DNA of 64,000 bases. It comes from Isoetes taiwanensis. Its lineage: Eukaryota > Streptophyta > Lycopodiopsida > Isoetales > Isoetaceae. The stretch's first letter is position 1; every line of letters starts with the position of its first letter. This document shows, one piece after another, positions 394 through 36,419 of this stretch. Below the pieces are notes generated by a model. It searched no databases and had not been told where the DNA came from. It saw nothing but the letters and a program-made list of their open reading frames with translations. A program made the translations under genes and the position numbers. Where the stretch lies: the NCBI GenBank assembly GCA_021234155.1, contig JAJEKV010000040.1, forward strand, positions 2,581,799-2,645,798. The letters are read 5' to 3'.

Positions 394-2211
394 ATGACCC
401 AATTTGTTTCCGGAGGACATGCCAACGTTGTAACTTTACCAATTGAGAAGAATATCCAAACAGTGGCAACAGGTTTATCATTTTCTGCAACCAAGTTGGA
501 TATGGATCAGCTTGTTTCTCAACTGAGGCGGTGTGGTGATTCTAAAGCTTTGGGAGAAGGTAAGCTGACCCATGTTTTAGTTATAAAGAGTAGATTCAGC
601 CAAGATAGGTTTTTGGGTAATCTCCTTTTACAGATGTATGGCAAATGTTTGTGTGTAAATGAGGCAAGGGAGGTATTTGTTAAGATGTGTGAAACCAATG
701 TTTTTACTTGGAATATCATGATTTCAGTATATATCCAAAGTGGAAATATAGAGGATGCATTAGGGCTATTTTGGCAAATGCCACATAAGGATGTCGTTTC
801 ATGGAATATGTTGATTATGGCTTATACCAACTCACGGAAGGCTGCAGAGAGGCGGTCAATTGTTTGAACAAGCTCACGAGAAAGATGTATTTTTTGTGGA
901 ATAGTATGATTGGAGGATATACCGCCATGGACAACTAGAGACTGACAGTTCGACTTTTTGAAAACATGCCCACAAGAGATGTGGTCTCTTGGAATACAAT
1001 CATTGGACTTATATCCAATGTGGAAAAGCTGAAAAGAAAGCGCAAAAAGCTTTTTGAGGAGATGCCAAAGCAGAATATTGTTTCTTGGAATACCATGATC
1101 TCGGGTTTAGCCCTTCATGGGAAGCTAGAAGAGGCTGCACAACTATTTAATAAAATGCCCAAGAGGAATGTGGTTTCATGGACTACTATGGTCGACCTAT
1201 GTTCAAGATGGGCAACTAGACAAAGGACTTGAACTCTTTGACCAAATGTCGAAGCGAAATGTAGCCACATGGAATGCCATGATCACTGGTTCACAATATG
1301 CAAAACTTGAGGAAACCATCAAGTTCTTTAGAAAGATGCCAGAGAGGGATGTTATATCATGGGTGCAATGCTATCAGCTTACACCAAGAAAGGATACCTC
1401 AAAGATGCCCTAGCATTCTTCAAAAAGATGCCACATCGGAATATAGTTTCTTGGAATGTAATGCTTGGGGGATATGTTGAACATGGACGGCTTGAAGAAA
1501 CATTGGACTTTTTTCAAAAAATGAGACTATCAAATATAAAACCTGATAGAGCCACATTTCTTAATCTTCTAGAAGCATGTGGCCATCTTTGCTGCTCTTG
1601 TCGAAGGAAAACAAGTACATTCTCTTATTATCGGTAGTGTACACGAATCAAATATGGCAATAGGTAATGCTCTACTTAACATGTATAGCAGATGTGGAAG
1701 TTTAAATCATGCGCGCTCAGTATTCAACAAAATGTGTGAGAGAGATGTGATTACATGGAATGCTATGATTATAGCGTATGCTCAACATGGGCTTTCAGCA
1801 GAAGTGCTATATCTTTTCCAAAGGATGCAGAAAGAAGGGGTGAGACCAGACGAGTTCACGTTTGTTGGCCTTCTTTCAGCTTGTAGCTATGGCGGCTTAA
1901 TGGATGAGGGAGCTCATTTCTTGGTATCCATGGGTAAAGATCCTGGTGTCACACCCACATTGGAGCACTATACTTGCCGGATTGATTTTCTTGGACGGAT
2001 TGGATGCCTAGATGAAGCAGAAGATTTAATTACTAGCACACCATTTCGAGAGGACACTGCAGTATGGACGACATTTCTTGGTTCTTGTACTCTTTACATT
2101 GACATGAAAAGAGGGAGAAATGCTGCAGAGTGTGTTTTGAAACTTGACTCCACAAATGCTGCGGCCTATGTGTCATTATCAAACATATATGCAGCAGCTG
2201 GATTAAACTAA
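394..2211 (+). pseudogene. PLS-type PPR protein pseudogene, copy 1 (left arm)
   Basis: The first in-frame ATG (394) opens a peptide starting MTQFVSGGHANVV. Successive frames then carry about a dozen PPR units with the hallmarks of the PLS class: WNxMI, MPxRDVVSW, MPERDVISW and an L-type unit with KPDRATFLNLLEAC and GKQVHS. PPR proteins of this class bind organellar RNA and usually edit it. The reading frame changes near 850-960, 1020, 1190, 1360 and 1580, so no single protein can be read. The last open segment (about 1579-2211) ends in LSNIYAAAGLN and then a stop. The E and DYW extensions that normally follow are not seen. The same gene lies inverted at 6220-10723, which helps place the breaks. 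Some frameshifts may be sequence errors, because several fall at CAG/CTG sites. Confidence 0.85.
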
Positions 2212-2640
2212 GTACATTCGAGCCTTGGGAATTGGTTTAGCCACCAGCAAACTGCTTAATCATGGCCATACCCTCCAAATTGATTCATGCAATTATATAA
2301 GAGGGTTAATATCCTCGGCCAGAGCTGTGCTTGTGACATGAAACCGGCACATTCCTTTATTACAGGTGGTGTACATGATGAATCAAATGTATGGAATATG
2401 TGAAGTTAAAATCATGCATGCATGTTCAGTATTCGACAGAATGTGTGAGAGAGATGTAATTACATGGAATGCCTTGATTGTAGCATAATACCTATATTGT
2501 GAGCTGAAAACTGTTTTAGTGGCCAACAAATCGGTCAAGCGTTGCATACCCTCCAAATTTATTCACGTGATTATACTGGTCCTCGACCAAGGGCTGCGCT
2601 GCCTATGACCTGCCTGAGATGCTCATGAGCTCGTGAACTT
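2212..2640 (+). pseudogene. Decayed PPR tail between the PPR copy and the HUH element
   Basis: About 2330-2500 still reads, in fragments, like a second degraded copy of the preceding PPR unit (CERDVITWNALIVA-like, after an ITGGVHDESNV-like stretch). Two related stretches containing CATACCCTCCAAAT follow each other near 2270 and 2550. The whole stretch is repeated in inverse orientation at 5790-6215, so it belongs to the palindromic arm. Confidence 0.6.
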
Positions 2641-2644
2641 TCCT

Positions 2645-4580
2645 TATAATCATTTGAAGCAAATGTGGCATCAATCATTTTTTAAATGGTCCATTTTCCT
2701 GCAGAACACTGGATTCTACACTTGTCACCAGCCAAAAACAACGTTCCATTTTTTATATATAACAACAGTTTACATTGGGAAAACAGTTTACATTGGACGT
2801 TATTACTGTCATATATGTCACATATGAAGCCACATAATATATAACAGAACATAGAACAGACTACATTCGGCATTATGAACATCAATACAAGGAAGCTCTC
2901 TCATGCGCAGCTGCCGAAGCTTGGAAAGGAGCATTGCGCGAACATGGTTCACCTCTCCTCTAAAAATCCGACGCTCCCTCACAGTAATATGCATTGCTGG
3001 ATCATCCATTGCGGTAAGTGGCTCAATCAGATTACATTCAAGTTATGAACAATTCTTCATGTGTTCGTCTTCATCCACTCCACATCAAAGAACGGACTAG
3101 TAGGAGCAACTAGTCTACCCTCCACCCCCTCGTCACTGTCAGACTCCGGATCAAGTGCTATGAATGGAGTGAACGGCGGGGATGTAGGGGTCTCTTGCTC
3201 CTGCTCGCCGTCAACTGCACCTACAAAATATAACAATCAAGAATGCATCAGTCACTCTCTTTGTTTGCTCAAAGAATGCAACTGAATTGCTCACTAAGAG
3301 ATAGCTAACGTTCCATCGACTCCCGGGGGATTCACATGTTTTGGGCGTACAAACCATGTGAGTTATACTTGAGGGGTTTTTTTTTACCATTTTACGTAGG
3401 CATACGTACCATACTAGGGGTTTTTTAACCACTATTTGGGGTAAACCATATACTTAAAGGGGTTAAAATAGCTTTCATAAGTCAGTATACTAGGGGGTTT
3501 TTTACTACCCCCCAGATGGCATATCCCCTTTGTTATAAGTGAATCCCCCGGGCATCGACTACATCTAGGGGGATGGAGTCCTGGAAGGGGATCAACTTGT
3601 GATTTTTAGGAGGCTGGAAAGCCAGGGTCTCCTCAAAGCATTCTTCACCATCCATAAATCCCATGTTCACCTCTTCATCCCCATCGTCTACAGCCTCTTC
3701 CTCATCCAACATCGCATTCAGTTTGTCTAATTCCCTGAATGCTATTGCATCATCCCAAAATCATCTTCGCCTCTTTCCAACTTTCTCAATCGGATCTTCG
3801 CCAGGTTGCAGACTATAAATAACACACCTCATGTCCTTGATGGACGCATGCATTGGATCCAATGCAAGGCGCCACACCGCTTCAACTCTCTCATAACTGA
3901 TTTTGTTGCTATTAAATGGAGCACCCAAGCACTACAAAGCACAAAGCGTCTTGTCCGGAGCATTCTAGCAAGCGTGTAGCGTAGGCTAGCAGTTTTCTGC
4001 TTCCCGCCATGATAAAGTACAAAATGTTGTGCACGAGCAAGAATATTTCGATTGTCCAGAACCACACAATTCTTTATCTCCCCCGCTTCGTAAAGAGCAT
4101 AAAGGTTCTTGCCTCGTTCCAACTGCTCAGGCGTAACTGCTTTCATGTGATTCTTGAAGTGCATCTTGCCTATATCTTTAAGGTAGTAACTCAGCATGCC
4201 TTCAAAGCAGTGCAGGCGGGTGTCTTTAAGAGCTTTGCAAAGAATCACACCTCCTGGCGGCCTGTGATCCACCCAGTTCAGGGCATGTTTGAGGCGAATA
4301 TTCACAGTTGTAGGGGTGGTGATAGGCATCCTGAAGACACATTGCAGGTGCAAATAGTCCAATTCAGATCCACGCTCAATAGACACCATGCCAGCCAAGC
4401 ACTCACCCTCAAGAAACTCACACGTCATACAGATCCTCCCATATATCAGCTCCCCAATGCTAATTGTGACACTTAGATCAATCGGTTCTGATGGACTTCT
4501 CGTGATCTCGAGTCTTACGGCTGGTAAGGCCGTCCTTTTCACTAAATCTGCCTCTCTCTTTTCCTCCATCTCTCTTCTCT
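2645..4580 (-). pseudogene. HUH-endonuclease transposon, copy A (inverted, damaged)
   Basis: The main open frame, 4569 down to 3829, encodes 246 residues. A charged start (MEEKREADLVKR) runs in the same frame into the conserved IDLSVTIS stretch. The HUH position reads YLHLQ (residues 72-76), so the first histidine of the HLHLQ seen in copy B is a tyrosine. The downstream motif reads YYLKD. After about 3900 the frame shifts and the C-terminal part continues in other frames to about 3600. A 231-bp MITE is inserted at 3322-3552, and 2820-3250 holds the second coding segment. The 3' end (2645-2700) matches the end of copy B. Beyond it, copy A shares flank with copy C and not with B. It is probably inactive. 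Confidence 0.75.
3322..3552. mobile_element. MITE, 231 bp, hAT-like 8-bp target duplication
   Basis: The ends are CCCGGGGGATTCAC and GTGAATCCCCCGGG, perfect 14-bp inverted repeats. The element is flanked by CATCGACT at 3314-3321 and again at 3553-3560. The uninterrupted site is visible in copy B of the host element (reverse complement of 12248-12265), where CATCGACT occurs once, so the insertion and its 8-bp duplication are demonstrated inside the window. There is no coding capacity. A relative lies at 52483-52729. An 8-bp duplication is typical of hAT elements, but the family assignment is inferred. Confidence 0.85.
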
Positions 4581-4624
4581 CAATGTATTTTATTTTCCAA
4601 TTTCAAATCCCAAGGAGTATTATT

Positions 4625-5785
4625 AGCAGAAAACTGCTAGCCTATGCTACACGCTTGTTAGAATGCTCCGGACAGGACTCTTTGTGCTTTCCAATGCTTG
4701 GGTGCTCCCATCTAATAGCAACAAAATCAGTTATGAGAGAGTTGAAGCGGCGTGGTGCCTTGCATTGGATCCAATGCATGCGTCCATCAAGGACATGAGG
4801 TGTGTTATTTATGGTCTGCCACCTGGCAAAGATCCGATTGAGAAAGTTGGGAAGAGGCGAAGACAATTCTGGAATGATGCAATAGCATCCAGGCAATTAG
4901 ACAAACTGGATGCGATGTTGGACGAGGAAGTGGTTGTAGACGATGGGGATGAAGAGGTGAACATGGGGTTTATGGATGGTGAAGAATGCTTTGAGGAGAC
5001 CACGGCTTTCCAGCCTCCTGAAAATCACGAGTACATTCCCCTGGATGTAGTTAATGGAATATTAGTTATCTCTTAGTGAGTAATTCAGTTGCATTCTTTG
5101 AGCAAACAAACAGAGTGACTGATGCATTCTTGATTTGTTATGTTTTGTAGGTGCAGTTGATGGCGAGCAGGAGCAAGAGACCCCTACAGCCCCGCTGTTC
5201 ACTTCGTTCATAGCACTTGATCCGGAGTCTGACAGTGAGGTGGGGTGGAGGGTAGAGTAGTTGCTCCTGTTGGTCCGTTCTTTGATGTGGAGTGGATGAA
5301 GATGAACATATGGAGAATTGTTCATAACTTGAATGTAAATCTGATTGATGTTGTTGACATCTTAGAAGAAGCGCTTACCGCAATGGATGATCCAGCAGTG
5401 CATGTTACTGTGAGGGAGTGTCGGATCTTTAGAGGAGAGGTGAACCATGTTCGCGCAATGCTCCTTTCCAAGCTTCGGCAGCTTGAGCAGCTTGCTAGAG
5501 CTCACCCAGGGACCATGCGTGCATGAGGAGAGCTTCCTTGCATTGCTGTTCATAATGCCGAATGTAGTCTGTTCTATGTTCTGTTATGTATTATGCGGCT
5601 TCATATGTGACATATATGACAGCAATAAAGTCCAATTTAAATTGTTTTCCCAATGTAAATTGTTGTTGTATATAAAAAATGGAACGTTGTTTTTGGTGGG
5701 TAACAAGTGTAGAATCCAGTGTTCTGCAGGAAAATGAACCATTTAAAAAATGCTGCTACATTTGCTTCAAATGATTATAAGGAAA
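4625..5785 (+). pseudogene. HUH-endonuclease transposon, copy C (5'-truncated)
   Basis: It starts at the point corresponding to about 11818 of copy B (AGAAAACTGCTAGCCTA...), so the HUH and YxxK region is missing. The C-terminal half is open from 4663 to 5076 (with NKISYERVEAAW, KVGKRRRQFW and an acidic EEVVVDDGDEEV stretch). After a TTTTGTAG acceptor-like site at about 5150, the second segment reads to 5526, ending LARAHPGTMRA. It lies back to back with copy A, with about 45 bp of unrelated sequence at the centre. Its 3' flank is shared with copy A, so A and C come from one inverted duplication, not two insertions. Confidence 0.7.
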
Positions 5786-6219
5786 GTTCACGAGCTCATG
5801 AGCATCTCAGGCAGGTCATAGGCAGCGCAGCCCCTGGTCGAGGATATTAACCCTCTCATATAATCACGTGAATAAATTTGGAGGGTATGCCATGATTGAC
5901 CAATTTGTTGACCACTAAAACAGTTTTCAGAGTTCACAATGTAGGCATTATGCTACAATCAAGGCATTCCATGTAATTACATCTCTCTCACACATTCTGT
6001 TGAATACTGAGCATGCATGCATGATTTTAACTTCATATATGCCATATATTTGATTCATCATGTACACCATCTGTAATAAGGGAATGTGCCAGTTTCATGT
6101 GACAAGCACAGCCCTGGCCGAGAATATTAACCCTCTTAATCGCATGAAACAATTTGGAGGGTACGACCATGATTAAGCAGTTTGCTGGTGGTAAACTAAT
6201 TCCCAGGGCTCGAATGTGC
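5786..6219 (-). pseudogene. Decayed PPR tail, right arm
   Basis: Inverted counterpart of 2212-2640. It carries the CATACCCTCCAAAT-type stretch and the degraded CERDVITWNA-like PPR remnant on the minus strand (about 5940-6100). No open frame. Confidence 0.6.
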
Positions 6220-7346
6220 TTAGTTTAATCCAGCTGCAGCATATATGTTTGATAATGACACATAGGCCGCAGCATTTGCTCGGTCAAGTTTCAAAACACA
6301 CTCTGCAGCATTTCTCCCTCTTTTCATGTCAATGTAAAGAGTACAAGAACCAAGAAATGTCGTCCATACTGCAGTGTCCTCTCGAAACGGTGTGCTAGTA
6401 ATTAAATCTTCTGCTTCATCTAGGCATCCAATCCATCCAAGAAAATCAATCCAGCAAGTATAGTGCTCCAATGTGGATGTGACACCAGGATCTTTACCCA
6501 TGGATACCAAGAAATGAGCTCCCTCATCCATTAAGCCGCCATAGCTACAAGCTGAAAGAAGGCCAACAAACGTGAACTCGTCTGGTCTCACCCCTTCTTT
6601 CTGCATCCTTTGGAAAAGATATAGCACTTCTGCTGAAAGCCCATGTTGAGCATACGCTACAATCATGGCATTCCATGTAATCACATCTCTCTCACACATT
6701 TTGTTGAATACCGAGCGCGCATGATTTAAACTTCCACATCTGCTATACATGTTAAGTAGAGCATTTTCTATTGCCATATTTGATTCGTGTACACTACCGG
6801 TAAGAGAATGTACTTGTTTTCCTTCGACAAGAGCTGCAGCATGGCCACATGCTTCTAGAAGATTAAGAAATGTGGCTCTATCAGGTTTTATATTTGATAG
6901 TCTCATTTTTTGAAAAAAGTCCAATGTTTCTTCAAGCCGTCCATGTTCAACATATCCCCCAAGCATTACATTCCAAGAAACTATGTTCCGATGTGGCATC
7001 TTTTTGAAGAATGATAGGGCATCTTTGAGGTATCCGTTCTTGGTGTAAGCTAATAGCATTGCAGTCCATGATATAACATCCCTCTCTGGCATCTTTCTTT
7101 AGAACTTGATGGTTTCCTCAAGTTTTGCATATTGTGCATAACCTGTGATCATGGCATTCCATGTGGCTACATTTCGTTCTGGCATTTGGTCAAAGAGTTG
7201 AAGTCTTTATCTAGTTGTCCATCTTGAACATAGGCTGTGACCATAGTAGTCCATGAAACCACATTCCTCTTGGGCATTTCATTAAATAGTTATGCAGCCT
7301 CTTCCAGCTTCCCATGCAGGGCTAAACCTGAGATCATAGTATTCCT
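6220..7346 (-). pseudogene. PLS-type PPR pseudogene copy 2, C-terminal part
   Basis: On the minus strand an open stretch of about 290 residues (7092 to 6220) carries PPR units with MPERDVISWTAML, MPHRNIVSWNVML, KPDRATFLNLLEACG, a GKQVHS-containing L unit and CERDVITWNAMI, ending LSNIYAAAGLN as in copy 1. Between 7092 and 7346 the same gene continues in other frames (MPxRNVVSW units). At 7346 it is cut by a LINE and resumes at 10085. It is better preserved than copy 1 here and shows which frames of copy 1 were once joined. Confidence 0.85.
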
Positions 7347-10084
7347 TTTTTTTGATTGAAGGCTATATTTGTATTAATAAGTTATACATAGAAATACATA
7401 TGTATATATGAGTACAAAAAGTCAACTTTTTTATCTTGGGAAGTGATTAACCCATTCGATCTATCTTTTAGATTCTGGGAAAAATCTAAAACTTAGATAC
7501 TACATCCATAGTCATATAAGACTTAACAAAAACTTGAAACTGAGATGATCTAATATATAGTTCTATGATAAGTCCGATTCCGATTTACGGTTTTAGCGGA
7601 GATCGGATACTTCTCAACTTTTCTTTTTTATCCTTTACGCCCATGCCTTCGGTAGCGTAGAATGAATGAATGAGCAAACGAGCTGACCTACATGACATTT
7701 AGAAGGGTAAAAACGACTGGTGGTCTATTGCTTCACAAATGAGTCCTCTCCGGCATCCGGACTTTGAATGCACGAGCAGTCCTAGCGACAATGATCACCA
7801 TGGTAATTGTTGGTGTGGCTCGAATTAGTCGACCACATGGAATTTACCGAGATTAATCCGATTCCACTTCAGCTTCTTTTGTGCAATGAGAATATTACCT
7901 ACTGGTCGTAAAACGAAGCGAGTTAGTGAATTGAGAAAATCTCTCTTATCCAAGAGATATCATATTTGGTTTGCTTGATCTTTTACGTCGGCGGATAATC
8001 TCTTGGTAAAAAATGATTGAGTTCCCTTGCTTTCGGATCCTCGAGTAGAATGTAGATTCTCCGGTCGAGGATCATTAGGAAAAAGGATTTCAACGAGGGG
8101 GGTAGAGGAGACGGTTGGGAATTTGGAATTCCTCGGTGACTAGCTCAAGTACCCCTTTCAGCCCATAAAGCAGTTCTTGAACAAATGACTTTCATCTTGA
8201 CTTCACTGTAAACATCTCTCACATAAGTTAGAAGCACCATGTTCAATCTAAATCTTTTTACATTGGTGGCTAAAGCCTTATGCCGAGTTGCCACATAAAG
8301 GCTTTGATTTTGGGGTTGATAGGAGAGTTCCACATGAATTTTAAATTTGCCATACATCTCTCCTCGGTGATCTCCCATTTGGTATGAATGGAGATGGTGT
8401 AGCTCCTTGTCGAATTTGTAAGCATTTTAACCCTATAACTTTTGTGTTACCATGAACATGCCATTGGGTTTCTTGGTTATGCCACACTCCTTCATTAAGG
8501 CAACTCCTTATGGCTTGATAGAGTCTCTCATGATCTTCACCCATATGCGCAAGAACCTGAATTTTGAAATTCTATAAAGCCCACATCATTAAACAAATGA
8601 GAAAAGTGAGTGATGCCTCTATCGACCATTTTTTACCAGCGAATAGGAAAATGCATAGCCAAGCCGGATGTGGGGTTATTTAGAATTAGAGAGGGTTCCA
8701 AAAAATTGTTTGATCCTTAGAAAGGCCCTCCTTCCAAGAATACATCCCGCTAACCGCTTTCCATGCTCTAATCCACTTTTTAATGATTCCGTGAGTATTA
8801 TTAGGAACCTTGAAATCAAAGAATAAGCTTTAGGGGAGGTGCATGTTCACATTTCTCCACCGAAGGGTTTACACTTTAGCAAGGTAATGATTAATAAGCT
8901 TTGACACGGGGTGATTAATCTCATCATGGCCGACTCTGTAAATGTATTTGGTCGCCGGGGGCCAGCCCTTGTTTCTCAATATCCGGAGAACTCCAAGACC
9001 ACCATGCTTCCTTTTTCTTCATACATTCTTTCATGAAACGGAACCGGGTTCTCATTTGCTACCCCCACTAGCAATAAATCTACCTAAAATGCCCCGAGTT
9101 TAGAAGTGACCTTTTAGGAGCTAAGAGGATAGAAGACTGGGTAAACATGAGAAGAAGAAATAACCGAAGTTGGCTAAGATAGCTCTTCCATTTTTGGACG
9201 AGATATTTTACCCATTTAAGAGATCAACCTTTACATGGAATTTCTCAATAATATCCCCCCAAAGATTACTAGCATTAGTCCTTAAAAGCAAAAGGAATAC
9301 CCAAGATTTTAGATTTAATAATTGGGAGAGATACTCGACCAAGGGTTTGGGCGCTTTGTGCCCTTTTACTGATTTCTTGCAATGAGCTTGGATTTGAGAG
9401 GGTTGATCTTACATCCAGGAGAGCAATTTCAAAGTCTTCGAGAACAATTTGGGTGTTTGTGATGGATCTTTCTTCCATAGTGACAAAGAGAAAAGTGTCA
9501 TCAAGGAAGTGAGCATTAAGGAAAAAACATGCCTCTTGATTATCGGGAAGTTTGAGTCCCACAATTCTCTTCTCGGTCGACTTTTTTGAAAGCACAATTC
9601 AAGGCTTCCATGATTATAAGAAAAAGAAAAGGGGCGAGGGCAACCTTGCTTGGCGCCTCTCTTTATCTCAAAGAAAGGGTCAGATTCTCCATTGATCGTA
9701 ACAGGGATCTTGAGTTGTAGAGGATGGCTTGAAAAATACTTATCACTTCCGGGAGAACCCCATCTTTTGACAACATTTGAAAAGGAAACTCGGTGACCGC
9801 AGTGTCAAAAGCCTTAGTAATATCCGGTTTGAGCGGGGGCAATGTCCTCGTTTAGTTTCTTTAGCCCAATGCATGCCAATGATAGTCAGGGCAACATTAT
9901 CTAGAATGGACCTATCCTTTAGGTAAGCACTTTGGGTATTGGAGATGGTGAGATCGTAATAGGTTTTGATCTAGAGGCTAGTGGTAGCGAGATGATTTTA
10001 TAAATAACATTGGTGAGGGATATGGGTCATCAAATCGAGAAAGTTTCGTAGTTCATCTATTTTAGGGATCAAGGAGATGGGATT
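7347..10084 (-). mobile_element. 5'-truncated L1-type LINE inserted in the PPR pseudogene
   Basis: The insertion interrupts the PPR sequence exactly. Copy 1 has the uninterrupted site at 1075-1100, while here the same bases are split between 7346 and 10085. The low-coordinate end begins with a T8 run, the poly(A) tail of a minus-strand insertion. Minus-strand frames between 10070 and 9270 read as degenerate reverse transcriptase: RPISLTNVIYKII, GAKQGCP and a DDTFLF that replaces the usual xADD. The 8145-8544 frames are the conserved C-terminal part of ORF2 (HNQETQWHVHGN). ORF1 and the endonuclease are absent, as expected for 5' truncation. The target duplication is not clear. Confidence 0.8.
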
Positions 10085-10723
10085 GCCAAGAAACAATATT
10101 CTGCTTTGGCATCTCCTCAAAAAGCTTTTGCGCTTCTTTCAGTTTTCCACATTGGATATAAGCTCCAATGATTGTAGTCCAAGAGACCACATCCCTGGGC
10201 ATGTTTTCAAAAAGTTGAACTGTTGTGTCTAGTTGTCCATGGCAGGCATATCCTCCAATCATACTATTCCACAAAAATACATCTTTCTCAGGAGCTTGTT
10301 CAAACAATTGGACTGCCTCTTGCAGTCTTCCAGAGTTGGTATAAGCCATAATCAACATATTCCATGAAACGGCATCCTTATGTGGCATTTGCCAAAATAG
10401 CCCTAATGCATCCCCTATATTTCCACTTTGGATATATACTGAAATCATGCTATTCCAAGTAAAAACATTGGTTTCACACGTCTTAACAAAAGGAGATTAC
10501 CCAAAAACCTATCTTGGCTGAATCTACTCTTTATAACCAAAATATGGGTCAGCTTACCTTCTCCCAAAGCTTTAGAATCACCACACCGCCTAAGTTGAGA
10601 AACAGGCTGATCTATATCCAACTTGGTTGCAGAAAATAATAAACCTGTTGCCACTGTTTGGATATTCTTCTCAATTGGTAAAGTTACAACGTTAGCATGT
10701 CCTCCGGAAACAAATTGGGTCAT
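10085..10723 (-). pseudogene. PLS-type PPR pseudogene copy 2, N-terminal part
   Basis: It starts at the ATG of MTQFVSGGHANVV (minus strand, 10721-10723) and runs through the same N-terminal region and first PPR units as copy 1 (QSGNIGDALGLFWQMPHKDAVSWNM and following units; MPRDVVSWTTIIGAY). One frame change occurs near 10445, and it runs into the LINE at 10084. Together with 6220-7346 it makes the right arm of the palindrome. Confidence 0.85.
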
Positions 10724-10739
10724 ATCCAATTTGTTATAT

Positions 10740-11030
10740 CCAAATTGGTCTGCAGATGGTTTCCGGATTAAGTCCAGCAGGATGGCAAGTTCGGATTTGC
10801 AAGTGGGTGCTTCTACTTCTAGAAGAGGAGGCCAGCGATGGCAGAAAGCGCCTCATCAACATGGCCTATTGTAGGTACATTTTAATCGTTTTCATCATGT
10901 TGAAGCGTTTAGCTAGCAGGTTTTAGTTTAGAGGAGAGTAGCTCAGTTGCTGCATCTTGGTGTGTCAGGGATTCATTTAGGCTAGAGTGCGACATAGTTT
11001 TCCACAGAAGCAGCTTTGTTGAGTGCCATC
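10740..11030. other. Unassigned stretch between PPR copy 2 and HUH element copy B
   Basis: No open frame that I recognise. The 5' end of copy B must lie here or just downstream, but only one copy extends this far, so the boundary cannot be set from the window. Confidence 0.5.
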
Positions 11031-11039
11031 TGAGCCCTT

Positions 11040-11157
11040 AGAAATTCGTCAGGATAATAGGCTGCATCTTCTTGCAGATGTATGTGATGCCAGTGGTCAT
11101 GCTCCTAGGAAGAGAGGCAGGCCTAGGAAGGAAGTTGCTTTGAAAATCCGAGAGTAG
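11040..11157 (+). other. AT-hook-like peptide frame at the 5' end of HUH element copy B
   Basis: Reading from 11040 in the frame of 11101, about 39 codons are open and contain APRKRGRPRKEVALKIRE before a TAG at 11155. RGRP flanked by basic residues is the AT-hook core, a minor-groove DNA-binding motif. The frame has no clear start codon. It may be the former N-terminus of the element's protein, now broken by the stop. Single copy in the window, so constraint cannot be judged. Confidence 0.35.
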
Positions 11158-11158
11158 G

Positions 11159-11332
11159 ATGAGAAGGCGGAGACGAAGAGGTAGAGGCAGAGGGAGATGG
11201 AAGGAGAGGGCAAAAAAATGTGAGAGGGAGAGAAGAGAGATGGAGGAAAAGAGAGAGGCAGATTTAGTGAAAAGGGGGAAGCCTGCAAGCCAGAAGACTG
11301 AGACTGCTGAGAAGTCCACTGTAATTGATTGA
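11159..11332 (+). CDS. Basic N-terminal segment of the HUH protein (frame-shifted)
   Basis: ATG at 11159 opens 57 codons: an Arg/Gly-rich start (MRRRRRRGRGRGRW), a charged stretch containing the MEEKREADLVKR that also starts the copy A protein, then TGA at 11330. The following endonuclease frame begins at 11325 in a different phase. In copy A the MEEKREADLVKR stretch and the endonuclease are in one frame, so the two parts belong to one protein and copy B probably has a small indel or sequence error near 11300. The Arg-rich part would suit DNA binding or nuclear import. Confidence 0.45.
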   Translation: MRRRRRRGRGRGRWKERAKKCERERREMEEKREADLVKRGKPASQKTETAEKSTVID

Positions 11333-12284
11333 TCTGAGTGTCACAATTAGCATTGGGGGAGCTGATATATGGGAGGATCTGTATGTCAGGACGTGTGAGT
11401 TTCTTGAGGGTGAGTGCTTGGGTGGCATGCTGTCTATTGAGCGTGGATCTGAATTGGATCATTTGCACCTGCAATGTGTCTTCAGGATGCCAATCACCAA
11501 CCCTATAGCTGTGAATATTCACCTCAAACATGCCCTGGACTGGATGGATCACAGGCCGCCAGGAGGTGTAATTCTTTGCAAAGCTCCTAAAGACACCCGC
11601 CTGCACTGCTTTAAAGGCATGCTAGGTTACTGCCTTAAAGATATAGGCAAGATGCACTTCAAGAACCACATGAAAGCAGTTACGCCTGAGCAGTTGGAAC
11701 GAGGCAAGAACCTTTATGCTCTTTACGGGGAGGGGGAGATAAAGAATTGTGTGGTTCAGGACAATCGAAATATTCTTGCTCGTGCACGACATTTTGTACT
11801 TTATCATGGCAGGAAGCAGAAAACTGCTAGCCTACGCTACACGCTTGCTAGAATGCTCCGGACAGGACGCTTTGTGCTTTCCAGTGCTTGGGTGCTCCCA
11901 TTTAATAGCAACAAAATCAGTTATGAGAGAGTTGAAGCGGCGTGGCGCCTTGCATTGGATCCAATGCATGCGACCATCAAGGACATGAGGTGTGCTATTT
12001 ATGGTCTGCAACCTGGCGAAGATCCGATTGAGAAAGTTGGGAAGAGGCGAAGACGATTTTGGGATGATGCAATAGCATCCAGGAAATTAGACAAACTGAA
12101 TGCGATGTTGGATGAGGAAGAGGTTGTAGACGATGGGGATGAAGAGATGAACATGGGATTTATGGATGGTGAAGAATGTTTTGAGGAGACCCTGGCTTTC
12201 CAGCCTCCTGAAAATCACAAGTTGATCCCCTTCCAGGACTCCATCCCCCTGGATGTAGTCGATGTAACGTTAGCTATCTCTTAG
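11325..12284 (+). CDS. HUH (Rep-type) endonuclease of a Replitron-like transposon
   Basis: An open frame of 319 residues from a TTG codon; the true start is upstream (see 11159-11332). Residues 46-50 read HLHLQ, the two-histidine metal-binding HUH motif. Residues 102-106 read YCLKD, the YxxK motif with the nucleophilic tyrosine and supporting lysine. The order and the 52-residue spacing fit single-tyrosine Rep endonucleases, which nick DNA and stay attached by a 5'-phosphotyrosine. After this come conserved HFKNHMKAVTPEQLERGKNLY and KVGKRRRRFWDD stretches and an acidic EEEVVDDGDEEMN region (about 265-280). No Walker motifs are visible, which argues against Helitron RepHel and against a single-stranded DNA virus Rep. 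The stop at 12282 probably lies in an intron. Identification is by motif, not by search. Confidence 0.65.
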   Translation: MIDLSVTISIGGADIWEDLYVRTCEFLEGECLGGMLSIERGSELDHLHLQCVFRMPITNPIAVNIHLKHALDWMDHRPPGGVILCKAPKDTRLHCFKGMLGYCLKDIGKMHFKNHMKAVTPEQLERGKNLYALYGEGEIKNCVVQDNRNILARARHFVLYHGRKQKTASLRYTLARMLRTGRFVLSSAWVLPFNSNKISYERVEAAWRLALDPMHATIKDMRCAIYGLQPGEDPIEKVGKRRRRFWDDAIASRKLDKLNAMLDEEEVVDDGDEEMNMGFMDGEECFEETLAFQPPENHKLIPFQDSIPLDVVDVTLAIS

Positions 12285-12357
12285 TGAGCAATTCAGTTGC
12301 ATTCTTTGAGCAAACAAAGAGAGTGATTGATGCATTCTTGATTGTTATATTTTGTAG

Positions 12358-12713
12358 GTGCAGTTAACGGCGAGCAGGAGCAAGAGACCCCTACAGCCCT
12401 GCCGTTCACTCCGTTCATAGCACTTGATCCGGAGTCTGACAGTGACGATGGGGTGGAGGGTAGACTGGTTGCTCCTACTAGTCCATTCTTTGATGTGGAG
12501 TGGATGAAGACGAACACATGGAGAATTGTTCATAACTTGAATGTAATCTGATTGATGCGTTGATATCTTAGAAGAGCCACTTACCGCAATGGATGATCCA
12601 GCAATGCATGTTACTGTGAGGAAGCGTCGGATCTTTAGAGGAGAGGTGAACCATGTTCGCGCAATGCTCCTTTCCAAGCTTCGGCAGCTGCGCATGAGAG
12701 AGCTTCCTTGCAT
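12358..12713 (+). CDS. Second coding segment of the HUH element (C-terminal or second exon)
   Basis: It begins just after TTTTGTAG, a good 3' splice site, and reads AVNGEQEQETP..., then a serine/acidic DPESDSDDG stretch and FFDVEWMKTNTWRIVHNLN. The frame breaks near 12545 and resumes (MDDPAMHVTVRKRRIFRGEVNHVRAMLLSKLRQL). Copy C has this part in one frame to a stop at 5526, and copy A has it on the minus strand. Copy B keeps a GT at the likely donor (12265, GTAACG), while A and C have GG there. The phase of a GT-AG splice joining both segments does not work out cleanly, so it may be a separate protein. Function unknown; the end could form a coiled coil. Confidence 0.45.
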
Positions 12714-12952
12714 TGATGTTTATAATGTCGAATGTAGTCTGTTCTATGTTCTGTTATGTATTATGTGGCTTCATATGTGATATATATGACAGTAATAACG
12801 TCCAATGTAAACTGTTTTCCCAATGTAAACCGTTGTTATATATAAAAAATGGAACGTTTTTTTTGGCTGGTGACAAGTGTAGAATCCAGTGTTCTGCAGG
12901 AAAATGGACCATTTAAAAAATGATTGATGCTACATTTGCTTCAAATGATTAT

Positions 12953-14620
12953 TCTATCCTACTGAAGTTCGAATTCAGTGGGCTTGCCATGAAGGGGCCT
13001 AATTTTTGTCCTTTTTTCCCTTGAAACAGTCTGGTGTATACGGGCAGTCTGGTGGTATATCCAAGTTTTGAAGAAGATTTGCAACAGTGCTTGTGCTTGG
13101 CTTAATCAGATCGATTTGGTGCTTGGATTTTGGTCTGCGACAGTGGTATGTTCATGCTCTGTAAATCATTCAATGCATTCACAACAGTCCTTGGGTTGAT
13201 CAGATCAATTTAGAAGTTAGAACTTCAAAAGAAAACAGACAATGGAGCAGAAGCCGAACCCAGTTGCCACACAGCCCTGCTTAACGAAGTTCTAAGTCTG
13301 ATTATGATACCTTGATTGAATGAACCATGCCGCATCGCAGAGCCGATACCCTGATTGAATGAACTATGCCGCAGAGCAGAGCCACAGTTACAGAGATACA
13401 GCGTTGGAAGAAAGAAAGGCTTTTTATTTCCCTCCTTTTTGTTTGCATTAAATTTTTGAGCGGGAGATCGATGGGATGGATGGGTGATTGGATTTGTTAA
13501 ACACTTAGATTTGTTGCTACAGTAGGTACAAAAAATGAGTAGTAAGTGCCGGTTTACAAATTAGCTATCGGCAATATTCCGGATCTGATTATTTTTTGTG
13601 CGGAAGGTGTTCCGCCACTTTGCCACGATGGACGACGAGTTGGCAATTTAAAACGGCATATTTGCCTCTGCCCCGGAGTTTCCCCAACGCTGCTCACCAG
13701 CCACACTCACGCCCACGCCCACAGGCGACGCTGACGCCCATGGGCCAGGCCCATGCTCACGGCCCACGCTGTGACAAAGAAGTCCAGTCACGCTCTATTC
13801 CAGATATATTCAAGTTTTATATGGTTGATCACGGGGGATGCTTTTATGGTGCTTACGTTTTTGAAGGCCCCCTATAATAATTGTTTTTAAATGAAATTTT
13901 GGGCACTCTTTGTTACAATAGACTTACCCATGATATAAGGGGATGGTCTTCATATTTTTTCTTGCCCCAGTTTCTATGATACATGTGCTACATTGACATT
14001 CCTTCGGATCCTATTCGTCATCAACGCAGTCACGAAGATTTTTTTTGGGTGACACAACCCAACCATTACCATCATTTTCGCCCCTAACTTTTTTGGCACC
14101 ATGTTGTAATTGTCGGACTTATCTTATAAAAGTCTGTACATGTTTTTGTGCTAAAAACTTCTAGGGGGAGGCAATGTTAACCACCTATTGTGCACATGCT
14201 AGATGTCAGTGGTGGCAGACTACACTTGGTATGATTAGTTTAACATAAGTGTAGGGCTTAGATTTAGCTAGATGTAGGGCTCAAATTTGCGGTCTACACT
14301 ATATTAGACCAGAGCCTCTTCAGATGTACTCAGGTTTTATCTCAAGTTTGGAGAGCCTCATTTGGCTCACGTTTCCTTCACTCTTTGTACATATTTTGTT
14401 CTTCTTGTCCTTATTTTGTGATCATGAGCATGGCAGCCTTGTAGCATCCGGCAGTCATAGACTGCTGCTGCGGGGTGTATGTCAAGAACTCACAATTACA
14501 GTCCACCAGATTGAGAATTCAGGCTCTAGCAAATGAATCATGAGAATCTCTAGCATGTACTTGGCATGTGGCTCTATGCAATTGAAAACACTAATAAATG
14601 TACCATGATATAACTTACCA
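12953..14620. other. Non-coding stretch, nothing recognised
   Basis: Short frames at 13546-13877 are driven by a GC-rich CACGCCC repeat (13700-13740) and show no family resemblance. AT content varies sharply. I see no RNA gene or transposon end. Confidence 0.5.
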
Positions 14621-22739: not shown

Positions 22740-25700
22740 AGCTCAAATATGCCAAGGTGGCTCAAACATGCCACCAAGGTGGCTCAAACATACACAAGGT
22801 GCCTCAAACATGCCACAAAGGTGGCTCCAACATGCCAAGGTGGCTCCAACATGCCACGCGGGCTCTAACATGCCATGCAGGCTCCAATATGCCAATGTGG
22901 CGCAAACATGCCACGTGGGCTCCACCATGCCACCTAGGCTCCAACATGCCAAGGTGGCTCACAACATGTCACCTAGGCTTAAATATGCCAAGTTGGCTCA
23001 AACATGCCGCCTAGGCTCCAGCATGCCACCGTAGCTCTAACATGCCACCTAGGCTCAAACATGCAAAAGTGGCTCAAACATGCCACGTGGGCTCAAACAT
23101 GCCACCTGGGCTCCAACATGCCAAGGTGGCTCAAACATGCCACCTAGGCTCCAACATGACAAGGTGGCTCAAACATGCCACATGGGCTCCAACATGCCAC
23201 CTAGGCTCCAACATGCCAAGGTGGCTCAAACATGCCACGTGGGCTCCAACATGCCAAGGTGGCTCTAACATGCCACCTAGGCTCAAACATGCCAAGGTGG
23301 CTCCAACATGCCACCTAGGCTCCAACATGACAAAATGGCTCAACCATGCCACCTAGGCTCCAACGTGCTCAAACAATGGCTCAAACATGCCACCCAACTT
23401 GCCAAGGTAGCTCAAATATGCCACGGGCTCCAACATGCCACCTAGGCTCCAACATTCCTAAGGTGGCTCAAACATGCCACATGGGCTCAAACATGCCATG
23501 CCTCCTTAGGCTCCAACATGCCATTCAAACTGCCAAGGTGGCTCAAACATGCCACATAGGCTCCAAACATGCCACATAGGCTCAAACATGCCAAGGTGGC
23601 TCAAACATGCCACCTAGGCTCCAACATGCCACCTAGGCTCAAACATGCCAGGTGGCTCAAACATGCCAAGGTGGGCTCAAACATGCCACCTAGGCTCCAA
23701 CATGCCAAGGTGGCTCACAACATGCCACCTAGGCTTAAAGATGCCAAGTTGGCTCAAACATGCCACCTAGGCTCCAACATGTCACCATGGCTCTAACATG
23801 CCACCTAGGCTCAAACATGCCAAGGTGGCTCAAACATGCCACGTGGCCTCCAACATGCCACCTAGGCTCCAACATGCAAAGGTGGCTCAAACATGCCACC
23901 TAGGCTCCAACATGACAAGGTGGCTCAAACATGCCACATGGGCATCAACATGCCACCTAGGCTCAAACATGCCACCTAGGCTCCAACATGCCAAGGTGGC
24001 TCAAACATGCCACGTGGGCTCCACCTAGGCTCCAACATGACAAAATGGCTCAAACATGCCACCTAGGGCTCCAACGTGCTAAAACATGCCACGCGGGCTC
24101 CAACATGCCACCTATGCTCCAACATGCCAACGTGGCTCAAGCATGCCACGAAGGCTCCAACATGCCACCTAGGCTCTAACATGCCAAGGTGGCTCAAACA
24201 TGCCATGTGGTCTCCAACATGCCACCACCAACAGGCAAGGTCCAACATGCCAAGGTGGCTCAAACATGCCACCTAGGCTCCAACTTGCTCAAACAGGCCA
24301 AGGTGGCTCAAACATGCCACGTGGGCCCCAACATGCCACAAAGGCTCCAACATGTCATGTGGGCTCCAACATGCCAAGGTGGCTCAAACATGCCACCTAG
24401 GCTCAAACATGCCAAGGTGGCTCCCACATGCCAAGGTGGCTCCAACATGCCACCTAGGCTCAAACATGCAAAGGTGGCTCAAACATGCCACCTAGGCTCC
24501 AACATGACAAAATGCCTCAAACATGCCACCTAGGCTCCAACATGCTCAGACATGCCACGCGGGATCCAACATGCCACCTATGCTCCAACTTGCCAAGGTG
24601 GCTCAAATATGCCACCTAGGCTCCAACATTCCTAGGTGGCTCAAACATGCCACCTAGGCTCAAACATGCCAAGGTGGCTCCAACATGCCACCGAGGCTCC
24701 AACATGCCACCTAGGCTCAAACATGCCAGGTGGCTCAAACATGCCAAGGTGGCTCAAACATGCCATCTAGGCTCCAACATGCCACCTAGGCTCAAACATG
24801 CCACGTGGGCTCCAACATGCCACGTGGGCTCCAACATGCCAAGGTGGCTCAAACATGCCACCTAGGCTCAAGAATGCCAAGGTGGCTCCAACATGCCAAC
24901 TAGGCTCCAACATGCTCAAACATGCCACACGGGCTCTAACATGCCACCTATGCTCCAACTTGCCAAGGTGGCTCAAATATGCCACGTGGGCTCCAACATG
25001 CCAAGGTGGCTCAAGCATGCCACACGATGCTCCAACATGCAGGCTGCCACCTACCAAGGTGGCTCAAACATGCCACGTGGTCTCCAACATGCCACCTAGG
25101 CTCCAACATGCCAAGGTGGCTCAAACATGCCTAGGCTCCAGGCTCAAACATGCCAAGGTGGCTCAAACATGCGTGGGCTCCAAGGTGCCACATAGGCTCC
25201 AACATGCCATGTAGGCTCCAACATGCCAAGGTGGCTCAAACATGCCACCTAAGCTCAAACATACCAAGGTGGCTCCCACATGCCAAGGTGGCTCCAACAT
25301 GCCACCTAGGCTCAAACATGCCAAGGTGGCTCAAACATGCCACCTAGGCTCCAACATGACAAAATGGCTCAAACATGCCACCTAGGCTCCAACGTGCTCA
25401 AACATGCCACGCCAGGTGGCTCCAACATGCCACCTATGCTCCAACTTGCCAAGGTGGCTCAAATATGCCACGTGGGCTCCAACATGCCACCTAGGCTTTA
25501 ACATTCCTAGGTGGCTCAAACATGCCACCTAGGCTCAAACATGCCATGCAGGCTCACTTAGGCTCCAACATGACAAGGTGGCTCCAACATGCCACCTAGG
25601 CTCAAACATGCCAAGGTGGCTCAAACATGCCACCTAGGCTCCAACATGCCACCTAGGCTCAAACATGCCAAGGTGGCTCAAACATGCCACGTGGACTCCA

Positions 25701-25975
25701 TAATGCCCAACATGCCAAGGTGGCTCAAACATGCCACCTAGGCTCAAACATGCCAAGGTGGCTCCAACATGCCACCTAGGCTCAAACATGCCAAGGTGGC
25801 TCAAACGTGCCACGTGGACTCCATAATGCCACGTGGGCTCCAACATGCCAAGGTGGCTCAAACGTGCCACGTGGACTCCATAATGCCACGTGGGCTCCAA
25901 CATGCCAAGGTGGCTCAAACATGCCCCAAGGTGGCTCAGGCATGCCACCTAGGCTCAAGCATGCCACCTAGGCAC
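22740..25975 (+). repeat. 19-bp minisatellite array, block 1
   Basis: About 3.2 kb of head-to-tail 19-bp units on the plan ATGCCA-NNNN-GGCTC-MAAC. The four variable bases are mostly CCTA, AGGT or CGTG, with rarer CGCG, CATG, TGCA and CATA. AGGT is usually followed by GGCTCAAAC, CGTG usually by GGCTCCAAC. Occasional truncated units (CAACGTGCTCAAAC type near 23360, 24065, 24540, 24905, 25390) recur with similar neighbours, which points to higher-order repeat growth. The units lack stop codons in several frames and so give long meaningless frames with a 19-residue period. Confidence 0.95.
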
Positions 25976-28688
25976 CCCAAGTGGTGACATGGCATGCCAA
26001 GTAAGCAAGGACAAGTTTTGATTAGGCCAAAAATGAAAAGATGTCCATCTTTGGTCTTTTCATTGGGTGATGTTGGCAAATTTTAGGTGACATGGCTAGA
26101 TGATGATGACATGGATATGATGACTAGGACTTTATGCAAGAAATATGATAACCTTTGAAATTTTCGTAGAGGAGTTTGACAAGGGATAGAATAGAGGGAT
26201 CTTAGAGAACTTAAAGCGCTGACACCCTTCCCCAAATCGAACTAGGCCAGGACTTCGCACAGCTTTCTCACCAGAGAGGAGAGGCCAGACCCTCGGAGAT
26301 GGACCTCAGAAAGGTTGGCGAGGCAGCCTTTCCTATCAGCTTTGGGAGGGCAAATGCCAATATATATACCCCTCCCTCCCCTCCAGGGAGCTCAAATTTC
26401 CTATCCGGCCGTTTGAATCTGTCATTCAAGTAACCCCGCCTTGGCGGTGCTCAAAAAAGAATCCAAGATCCGTCAAGAGAACTTATCAAACCATCGGCGT
26501 TGCGTGGGTTGGCCGCGTGAGAAAACCAAGTGTTTTGTCGTTTCGGGCAGTACAAAGGCTCGGAATGGAGATTCGACCGCCATGTCGATGGAATGGGAAA
26601 TTACCCGGGGGGACCAAGTTACATGGTCATTTTTGGCAGCGAAACAAACACGAACCCTCTACATAGCGGTATTCATGACCACCTCCTAGGCCAATTGACT
26701 ACTGACGTGTTGGACATGAGCTACTTTGGTGCTTCTTGGAGAAGGGGTAGTCTTCTGCCCATGAAACTTGGCCCCCAAGGTAAAGTCAACATTTTGAGTC
26801 CATTGGCAGAGTCAGTTCACAGTTTTGGAGTGGGAGAGTTGCCCGTCCTTGGCAGGGGCCTTCAGGAGAGGACCTTTGAGGCAAACTGCTTCCGGAAGGT
26901 TTTAAAGGTCCCTCTTCTGGCATCAATACCCTCCCTCTATGTGATGAAATTGTGCAAGATCCTGGTCGAATCTGACTAGGATACGGCCTCCAAAATGTAA
27001 ACCACGGTATGTGTTGCTAGGTTATTGAAAGGTTTGCGTTATGGAGGTCGAGTTTTTTAAGTCGGTTGCACTTGGGACATGGTCAAAGAAGTCTGCAGAT
27101 TGAAAATGTGAAGCAATATGAGGCGGGGAATGGGATTTGGATTTATCTTCCTCCCGGTGTGGCAATTAGAAGTCAAGAGCACCTTTTGCGAAAGTAGCAA
27201 AATTGTTTGGGATCATTAGGGATGGCCAATAGATCAAACTTCAGTTATTTCGGTTGCCATGGCTCGCATGTGTGTTTAGCAAAGGTGCACCTAGCTATCC
27301 GAGAAAAGCGATCACATTTTGGCCTCCGAAACGTAAACCCTACAATAACCTACCAAAACGTGGTCGTTTTCTTGGATAGCTAGGTGCACCTTTGCTAAAC
27401 ATACATGCGGAGCCATGACAACTGAAATAACAGAGTTTGGATCTATTGGCCATCTCGAATGATCCCAAACAATTTTGCTACTGCAAAAGGCACTCTTGAC
27501 TTCTAATTGCCACACTAGGAGAAGGATAACTCCAAATCCGATTTCATCAGTTCCTATTGCTTCATGTTCTCAATTGCAGCTTCTCAACCATGACCCAAGT
27601 GCAACCGACTAAAACTCGACCCCCATAACGTAAACCCTTCAATAACTTAGTAACACACAGGGTTTACGTTTCAAAGGCTATATCCTAGTCAGATTCGACC
27701 AAAATCTTGCACAATGTCATCACGTAGAGGGAGGGTATTGAGGCCATAAGATGGAACTTTGAAACCTTTTGGAGGCAGTTCGCGCCAAAGGTCCTCTCCC
27801 AAAGAACCCCGCCACGGACGGCAACTTTCCCAATTCGAGGCGGTGGAACCGACTCGCCAATGGACTCAAAATGTCGACTTTACCCCTGGGAGCAAGTTTT
27901 TAGGCGTAAGACCACCCCTTCTCCAAGAAGCACCAAAGTAGCTCATGTCCAATACGTTCGTAGTCAATTGGCCTAGGAGGTGGCTGCGGAATACCACTAT
28001 GTAGAGGGTTCGTGTTTCTTTTGTTGCCCAAAATGACCATGTAACTTGGTCCCTGGGGTAATTTCGCCATTCCGGACGACATGGCGAAGTCGAATCTCCA
28101 TTCCAGAGCCTTTGTGCTACCCGAACGACAAAACACTTGGTTTTCTATGCGATCAACCCGCAGAACACTTCGTGGTGTGATAAGTTCTCCCGGACGGATC
28201 TTGGATTTTTTTGAGCCTGCTCGAAGTAGGTTACTTGAATGACGGATTCAACGGTTGGATAGGAAAATTGAGCTCCCGGAGGGGGGGAGGGGAATTGGCA
28301 TTTGCCCTCCCAGAGGAGCGTTGATAGGAAAGGCTGCCTCGACAACCTTTCTGAGGTCCATCTCCTGGGGTCTGGCCTCTCCCCTCTGGTGAGAAAGCTG
28401 TGCAAAGTCCTGGCCTAGTTCGAGTTGGGGAAGTGTGTCAGCGCTTTAAGTTCTTCAGATCCCTCCATTCTATTCCTTGCCAAACTCCTCTACCAAAAAT
28501 TTCAAAGGTTATCATATTTCTTGCATAAAGTCCTAGTCATCATGTCCATGTCACCACCATCTAGCCATGTCATCCAAAATTTGCCAACATCACCCAATGA
28601 AAAGACCAGAGATGGACATCTTTTCATTTTTGGCAACACTTGGCCTTGCTTTCTTGGCATGCCATGTCACCACTTGGAGTGCCACATG
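25976..28688. mobile_element. 2.7-kb foldback element with ~1.33-kb inverted arms
   Basis: The left arm 25976-27307 is the reverse complement, with many small differences, of the right arm 27365-28688. The termini are CACCCCAAGTGGTGACATGG and its counterpart CCATGTCACCACTTGGAGTG. The inner stem GTTTAGCAAAGGTGCACCTA is perfect. A 57-base loop (27308-27364) separates them. The satellite on both sides runs in the same direction, so the element sits inside the array and the array is not part of the palindrome. The arms carry short frames (26441-26979 and the mirror 27900-28405) with no recognised domain. A TATATATA at about 26361 is present only in the left arm. Target duplication is uncertain because the flanks are repetitive. 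Confidence 0.75.
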
Positions 28689-29630
28689 GGCTTCAACATG
28701 CCACCTAACATGCCAAGGCGGCTCAAACATGCCAGCGGCTCCAACATGCCACCTAGGCTCAAACATGCCAAGGTGGCTCAAACATGCCACCTATTCTCCA
28801 ACATGCCACATAGTCTCCAATATGCCACCTAGCCTTAAACATTCCAAGGTGGGTCAAACATGCCACCTAGGCTCCAACATGCCAAGGTGGCTCAAACATG
28901 CCAAGACCCAATATGGCGGGTTCCAACATGCCATCGAACATGCCAAGGTGGCTCAAACATGCCAAAACACTCCACCTAGGCTCAAACATCCCAAGGCCAC
29001 ATAGTCTCCAACATGCCACCTAGGGGTTCCAACATGCCAGGCCCAAACATGCCAAGGTGGCTCAAACATGCCACGCGGGCCCCAACACTCCACCTAGGCT
29101 CAAACATCCCAAGGCCACATAGTCTCCAACATGCCACATAGTCTCGAACATGCCACCTAGGCTCCAACATGCCACATAGTCTCCAACGTGCCACCTAGGC
29201 TCCAACATGCCACCTAGGCACAAAAATGCCAAGGTGGCTCAAATATGCCACCTAGGTTCCAACATGCTCAAACATGCCGTGGGCTCCAACATGCCACCTA
29301 GGCTAAAACATGCCAAGGTGGCCCAAACATATGCGTGCCATGGGTCCAACATGCCACCTAGGCCCAAATATGCCAAGGTGGTTGGCTCAAACATTCCAAG
29401 GTGGCCTCAAACATGGGTTCCAACATGCCACCTAGTTGGCTCAAACATTCCCAAGGTCCAGGGGCTCCAACATGCCACCTAGGCTCCAACATGCCACCTA
29501 AGATGCCAAGGTGCCTCAAACATGCCACGCGGGCTCCAACATGCCACCTAGGCTCCAACATGCCACCTAGGCTCCAACGTACCACCAAGGCTCCAACATG
29601 CCAAGGTGGCTCAAACATGCCACCACTCAA
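28689..29630 (+). repeat. 19-bp minisatellite array, block 2
   Basis: The same 19-bp plan and orientation as block 1, but more broken, with insertions such as CATCCCAAGGCCACATAGTC. Ends at about 29630. Confidence 0.93.
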
Positions 29631-34371: not shown

Positions 34372-36419
34372 TTGACTATGAAGAAATACAACTCTCCGAC
34401 TTACCGCCATAGCAGAGGTATTGAATTGAACCCCGAACTCTGTCACTCAAGATTTCAATTCCTGTCTTCGCATGCTGTCATTTGTTGGACTGAAAAGGAG
34501 GGGATAATTTTGGGGAATGTTTCTAAACAAATTTGCGCTTTATCCAAGTCAATTCAAATCTCTTCCATCTATTGGACTCGCTTCCCCTACTTTGTGATTG
34601 AATTCTGCTCTGAGCAAGCAGCTGAGCACATCTTAAAACTGTGTCATCTTACCCATTTCGGATTCAGAATCAAATTTCAAAAATGGTCATATCAATTCAA
34701 CCCTCTTCGTCCCGCTACTCTCATGCATACTGCTTATGTTCATTTGCATGATCTTAATCTGGTATTCTGGGAGGATCAATGCCTTAAAGCAATATTTTCT
34801 TCAATTGGCTCCTTCATCTCCTCGGAACGCAGGCCTGATAGACCCCCTACTGTCTTCATGCAATTGGATCTCCTCAAGCCTATTCCTCTTGAAGTTACCT
34901 TCCAGGATATGTTTGGGACCGATCAATCCCTGCTTTTAAGGTGGAATGGATTGCCCCCTGTTTGTCCTGTTTGCAGGAAAAGATTGCATGGAGGACAGAA
35001 GTGTAGCCCGGTGCTTGATCAACATAGTACCTTAGAGACGGAGGAAGCTCATGTATTTCATCGCCATCAGGGTAATCTTAATGGTAGTTCGAAGAGAATC
35101 CGAAGAAAACAGATTATCAGAGAAAAATAGCTCTGGCTAATAAAGAGCTAGAACAGAAATTTAGAACTCAGGAAGTAGGGACCCAGAATAATAATGGAAC
35201 TGTTAAGGTTTTAAACAAGGGTATTATCACAAAAGGGGTGTCCTTCAACATCTCGGACATGGTTAAAACCTTTGACAAACATAAACCTCCTGGTCATGTC
35301 CAATTTGATGAAATCAAAGTAGTCAGGGCCAGAGAGGATACAGTTTGGGAGGATGACTACTCGACTTGGCAGATATCTAAATCGAATCAGACTAATTTAA
35401 AAGACTCTGCTGAAATGGAAGTGGGGCTCACTCATAATACAACTGAAGATAGGGACCCCAGTTCCCCCACACCATCTACAATAGACTCATCCCCCATCAT
35501 CTGCAACAACAAGTTCCAAGTGCTATAGGATATATCAAATATGTATGAAGAGGACCTTGCTGGACTCATTAGCCCAAAAGGAAAAGGAAGGATTCTTGAT
35601 ATGACTCAAGATCAACCATTTCTTGATATGACTCAAGATCAACTACTGATCAAAGATACAAGTGCTCTAGAATTTGATGCACTGAATGACCCTTCACTAG
35701 TCAACTCCACTTGCACGGGTGACCGAATTCTTGTTGACCTATCCGTTGACCCTGCCTCCAACCATACTCTCGTCAACTTTGATATTCCCTCCATCTTCCC
35801 CCCCTCCCATCACACTCCTTTACCTATGCTGTATGATAAGTATGGTAAATCCACTGTCGACCTAGTGAGCAAAATTGTCGCAGATGCTGTGGATGCAACA
35901 TGTCATCAACTGAAGGCTCCCCCCTTGAAAGCCAGCAAAGGAGATGGCCATTGTGATGCTCAAGAGGATGCTGAGCGAGTCCAGGTAAGTGACCACTCCC
36001 CTATCTGTCATAGCCCTCAAATTGATTTCCAGGCAACCCAAGGCTGTATTAGTGAGATGGAAATCCCATCCTCTCTGCAAGATGGTTGTGTTTCTGATGA
36101 TGATTGTGAGATGGTCAAATCCACCCCCCTGGGTACTGATAAACAGAATATTGAATTGGGGCTAATAGCTTTGCAGTCAAACCTTGACAGTATAGAGTCT
36201 TTGGGACTAAATCACTTTGACATAGTTATTCCTGACTCTGAGGAGGACCTCAGTTGTAGCCCTCTGCATGACATCTCTAATACTTCTCTGAGATCACTAA
36301 AAAAGAAAATGAAAAATAGGACTACACCTAAGTCCCCCATAGGCAGTGAGAACTACCCACATACTTACAACACCAGAAGCAGATCTTCACCTCATGGACT
36401 GAGGAAGCTCAATTATTGA
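34372..36419 (+). pseudogene. LINE ORF1 (nucleic-acid-binding protein), frame-broken
   Basis: The first open part, 34372-35130 (252 codons), has the plan of plant L1 ORF1 proteins: a DUF4283-like region of about 200 residues followed by a short cysteine motif (PPVCPVCRKRLHGGQKC). The frame breaks after 35130, resumes at 35238-35528 and again at 35541-36419. The last part is a long acidic, low-conservation tail ending YNTRSRSSPHGLRKLNY. ORF1 proteins coat LINE RNA. ORF2 starts 36 bases after the ORF1 stop, the usual close spacing. Confidence 0.65.

Follow-up and report, generated by a model that had tools for sequence, protein, structure and literature searches.

Replitrons, which were reportedly described by Craig in PNAS in 2023, are transposons that combine a single catalytic tyrosine with an HUH motif, lack a helicase domain by definition, and move by copy-and-paste transposition. 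A role in oligomerization is attributed to their C-terminal domain (Pfam model PF21860, Replitron_C). Helitrons, likewise HUH-nuclease transposons of eukaryotes, possess two tyrosines and a fused helicase, and the Rep proteins of CRESS-DNA viruses carry an SF3 helicase domain following the HUH domain. In a review (PMC10741241), Replitrons are given direct terminal repeats of 5–11 bp, an element length of 0.9–4 kb, and a target site duplication of 2–8 bp, and Helitrons are stated to make no target duplication.

Three related copies (A, B, and C; Table 1) lie in the window, the term used here for the whole 64,000-nucleotide stretch of Isoetes taiwanensis DNA that was analysed. These copies are almost certainly old insertions of a Replitron, in which a single-tyrosine HUH (Rep-type) nuclease is the sole recognised enzyme. 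In a 319-aa open frame of copy C (11325–12284, forward strand), the HLHLQ and YCLKD motifs occur at the residues given for them in the preliminary description. The frame scores 60.8 bits with PF21859 (Replitron_HUH), a model whose cut-off is 28.5 bits, and this score and its E value (Table 1) indicate that the frame is not a product of chance. As to the family that the protein would match best, a question posed at the outset, the best model was Replitron_HUH, and no helicase or Helitron model was matched in Pfam at E ≤ 10, under filters that drop most weak matches. The original placement among or near the Replitrons is thus supported by a dedicated Pfam model, by missing helicase models, and by direct terminal repeats within the same family (see below). 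Both profile and fold comparisons had been proposed; the former returned Replitron_HUH, and the latter yielded a model of low confidence (mean pLDDT 46.1), with circovirus Rep tied with unrelated folds and no PDB match at E ≤ 0.001. This weak fold model detracts from the assignment to Replitrons, as does PF21860, whose cut-off the window protein fails to reach and which was matched by five of 29 aligned family members at E up to 1.

Table 1. Features of the Replitron copies and their immediate surroundings in the window
Feature	Position	Strand	Basis or remark
Replitron copy A, frameshifted	2646..4581	-	PF21859, E 1.8e-13; 231-bp insert
Replitron copy B, without the HUH domain (catalytic part)	4625..5778	+	second arm of inverted duplication
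Host PPR-gene flank	10077..10726	-	three paralogous places unbroken past the point matching 10726
19 bp	10727-10745		between host PPR flank and start of copy C
Replitron copy C, 5'-truncated, with non-standard 3' end	10746..12952	+	genome matches; edge common with A and B
Decayed N-terminal coding part, AT-hook-like KRGRPRK	10782..11324	+	three in-frame stops, frame changes; open in relatives
HUH endonuclease domain	11337..11717	+	PF21859 positions 1-127 of 128, E 2.1e-16
HUH motif HLHLQ	11460..11474	+	residues 46-50
YCLKD motif, presumed catalytic Tyr102	11628..11642	+	residues 102-106
Weak PF21860 (Replitron_C) match	11844..11990	+	16.5 bits, under the cut-off of 27
Further coding-like frames downstream	12360..12739	+	beyond the end of the 319-aa frame

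The genome-wide copy search suggested in the preliminary description recovered at least 128 protein-level matches in the 1.66 Gb assembly, a lower bound (125 of 4302 first-look candidates scored), as well as 59 DNA-level matches to window positions 10500–13100 (40 of 281 candidates scored), and the ends of the element could be mapped in relatives. Forty genome stretches were taken, which together with the window hold 56 copies, three of them the window's own; genome loci carrying related copies are labelled L009, L010, and so forth. Sufficient open frame around the HUH region was retained in 28 of the 53 non-window copies, giving an alignment of 29 proteins once the window was included. PF21859 matched every one of the 29, in all of which E39, H46, Y102, K105, and D106 are invariant, and H48 is present in 25; because the 28 relatives were picked by their open frames, intact motifs and low dN/dS values are favoured in this set. 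As judged from the alignment, the window protein and its relatives appear to share the HUH motif and single catalytic tyrosine of Replitrons. Purifying selection acts between the open copies, which, it should be noted, were those selected from the sequence for being open: among 36 of the 406 pairs, falling in five listed dS bins, median dN/dS was 0.156 at dS 0.2–0.4 (15 pairs), 0.139 at 0.4–0.8 (eight pairs), and 0.079 at 0.8–1.5 (seven pairs), with values of 0.15–0.64 for the six closest pairs and 0.95 for a single pair at dS 0.2. Both these higher values and the way the copies were picked tell against the main reading.

Open frames in the relatives extend up to 580 aa, and a KRGRPRK-like motif occurs in seven of the nine that were listed. 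PF21859 was the sole model to reach its cut-off in six longer frames (442–580 aa), two of which also matched the Pfam AT-hook below cut-off, and no helicase, Helitron, viral Rep, or SF3 model was found in these six in Pfam at E ≤ 0.1, so that at these thresholds the earlier claim of a helicase-free protein holds for the window protein and for the six longer relatives alike. These findings bear on two other origins for the nuclease. The first is a Helitron, or a derivative of one after helicase loss, since HUH nucleases are common to both groups and tandem arrays are possible in both; it is rendered highly improbable by the lack of any Helitron or helicase model at the above thresholds, by the one tyrosine in the motif, and by a best model that is Replitron_HUH. 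Neither the fused helicase nor the paired tyrosines of Helitrons were found in the window protein and its relatives. The second, which we regard as scarcely credible, is the endogenisation of viral replication genes (CRESS-type Rep, from a virus with single-stranded DNA), an origin with which the motif order is compatible, being like that of Rep proteins, and toward which the circovirus Rep domains among the weak fold matches also point. Against it stand the absence of viral Rep and SF3 helicase models from the listed matches, a high copy number with common terminal repeats and defined ends, as in a transposon, and an IMG/VR scan with six peptide patterns, a search that reaches close relatives only, in which no relative was confirmed. 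An SF3 helicase following the HUH domain was found neither in the window protein nor in the six relatives.

As Replitron insertions, the window copies are most likely dead. In copy A, a tyrosine replaces the first histidine of the HUH motif. The 319-aa frame of copy C begins at TTG, a mechanical start assigned by a bacterial rule, and is preceded from an ATG at 10782 by coding-like sequence with stops, which indicates that the frame is the open remnant of a longer, decayed protein. Copy C also extends beyond the 5' limit of 11030 first proposed for it, which found no support: 12 of the 59 DNA-level matches start at 10746–10751 (10 end at 12689), and, by comparison with L009, L029, and L036, related elements continue upstream for another ~140–210 bp until their 5' repeat. 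On the host side, this 5' junction is sharp, with three paralogous flanks continuing beyond it (Table 1). The proposed 3' limit of 12952 proved to be a real edge, common to A, B, and C, and yet not the family's own terminus, as the final ~70 bp, shared by all three copies, stand in place of the 3' end of other family members.

All three of the copies counted in the preliminary description are present, but they derive from just two independent insertions. Copies A and B lie head to head in opposite arms of one inverted duplication, in which 1087–3316 pairs with 7345–5054 and 3587–4001 with 5040–4625, and both have the same 3' flank, whereas the flanks of copy C differ; A and B therefore represent one insertion that was duplicated in inverted orientation. 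The large inverted duplication (1087–7345) shows 91% identity across 2.3 kb and contains PPR-gene frames in addition to copies A and B, and PPR-gene flanks akin to those of the window were found on two other contigs. The best among the named matches to the window's PPR protein are proteins of Calypogeia, Marchantia, Diphasiastrum, Selaginella, and Physcomitrium, at 50–57% identity, which points to a non-seed plant as the probable host. Copy A is further interrupted by a 231-bp insert (3322–3552), the ends of which are inverted over 14 nt (CCCGGGGGATTCAC) and flanked by an 8-bp repeat (3314–3321 and 3553–3560); this insert, which is absent from B and C, resembles a small hAT-type element and may be one. 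Elsewhere in the window, a long array of mutually similar repeats occupies 22741–25976 and 28680–29624, with open frames rich in similar short phrases, and 25971–28683 forms a large palindrome with an 84% match to its own reverse complement. Finally, 34372–47304 holds retrotransposon pieces, namely a gag of the copia type and an apparently LINE-type reverse transcriptase.

Terminal repeats are evident in several families of these elements. Elements of two related families start at their 5' end with AGTAGGTTTCCCAATGA or a near variant, present with three or fewer substitutions in 21 of the 56 copies; at the 3' end, many of them have GACCGATTAGG or GAGCGATTAGG, which occur two or three times in some copies. 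A third family has ATAAGG at both ends. The 3' ends of L028, L024, and L041 contain a short unit, with ATTAGG as its last bases, that is present two or three times, with termination seemingly possible at each. In the window's own family, L029 and one of the two L036 copies carry the nonamer ATTAGAGTT at their mapped 5' ends. At the 3' end, it is found in both L036 copies and in the three L009 units, where it occurs twice with a spacing of 17 nt, such that one L036 copy has it at both mapped ends, as direct terminal repeats. By comparison, a single occurrence was found in 136,545 bases from 27 copies of other families. The short direct terminal repeats of Replitrons are thus seen in relatives of the window family and not in the window copies, all three of which are without ATTAGAGTT, as are L045 and the 3' end of L029, and its absence from the window copies also weakens their assignment to Replitrons. 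From mapped end to mapped end, L034, L024, and L028 measure ~2.65, 2.85, and 3.14 kb, inside the Replitron range of 0.9–4 kb.

Target duplications were sought at 21 elements whose 5' end had been mapped, using 420 swapped flank pairs as a control. Direct repeats of 18–26 bp, the least expected of the observations, were detected at the flanks of three elements. The repeat at L028 (score 38) is 19 bp and exact, and that at L034 (score 36) is 18 bp and exact, although two of its base pairs possibly belong to the element; at L024 (score 32), the alignment covers 26 columns, including a 3-nt gap and a single mismatch, and is the least secure, since swapped pairs reach a score of 27. Three swapped pairs score 53 or higher, which is due to the second L015 copy having the 3' end of a Replitron as its flank, 27 being the next highest. 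The other 18 elements show no recognisable target duplication (scores ≤ 19) in a test where the shortest duplications are indistinguishable from chance. Placement among the Replitrons is weakened by these 18 elements, and likewise by three repeats that are far longer than the review describes.

Arrays of the element are also found, with head-to-tail neighbours at L009, L010, L013, L014, L015, and L025 and convergent pairs at L016, L036, L043, and L048; several of these loci were chosen for their neighbouring matches, and so the counts give no frequency. An alternative to transposition, whose probability we place a little short of even, is that the tandem arrays arose by ordinary unequal exchange or segmental duplication, and the possibility of such later duplication in turn weakens the arrays as support for a Replitron. 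The genome has clear segmental duplications, such as that of the PPR locus; at L010, where two repeats are separated by a 6-nt linker, the units have a common junction and were therefore amplified together; and the junction at L025 consists of two truncated ends joined. The L015 junction argues otherwise, as the 3' end is joined directly onto the 5' end through one hexamer, with host DNA absent between them, and the two units are merely 87.8% identical; the 5' hexamer at this junction, AGTAGG, is in the position of the ATTAGG of L041. L009 can be read both ways: each of its junctions passes from the 3' ATTAGAGTT into element sequence at once, and yet its two junctions are alike, and a unit lacks ~70 bp that L029 has immediately internal to the repeat, which means that the join is possibly to a truncated end. 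Rolling-circle read-through would explain the origin of the L015 array and perhaps that of L009, and later duplication explains part of the remaining arrays.

If these elements are mobilized as Replitrons, their HUH enzyme would use Tyr102 to nick single-stranded DNA at the terminal repeat, host factors would displace and copy the strand, and the ends would be rejoined at a new site; read-through beyond the 3' end, or circle-like intermediates, may then give rise to arrays. The elements resemble known Replitrons in an HUH domain recognised by profile, one catalytic tyrosine, the lack of a helicase model, direct terminal repeats, and lengths of ~2.7–3.1 kb in the three measured elements, and they differ in a C-terminal domain that is weakly matched, flanking repeats of 18–26 bp (three elements) rather than 2–8 bp, a short unit present two or three times at some 3' ends, and possibly head-to-tail arrays. 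It seems unlikely, albeit worth stating, that Replitrons of the Isoetes lineage have staggered target cleavage with 18–26 bp duplications, 3' ends of variable repeats, and rolling-circle arrays; if they do, their mode of insertion would be unlike the strand-transfer picture of other HUH transposases.

Replitrons are already known as a kind from non-seed plants, and the window elements are further members of this kind. The array junctions and the long repeats that flank some of the relatives merit checking. Replitrons are recent and little studied, and the I. taiwanensis genome, with more than a hundred matches in several families, some of them with well-defined ends, open reading frames, and a low dN/dS ratio, is well suited to defining their termini, array junctions, and target duplications, and to testing how a helicase-less HUH nuclease moves in a plant.
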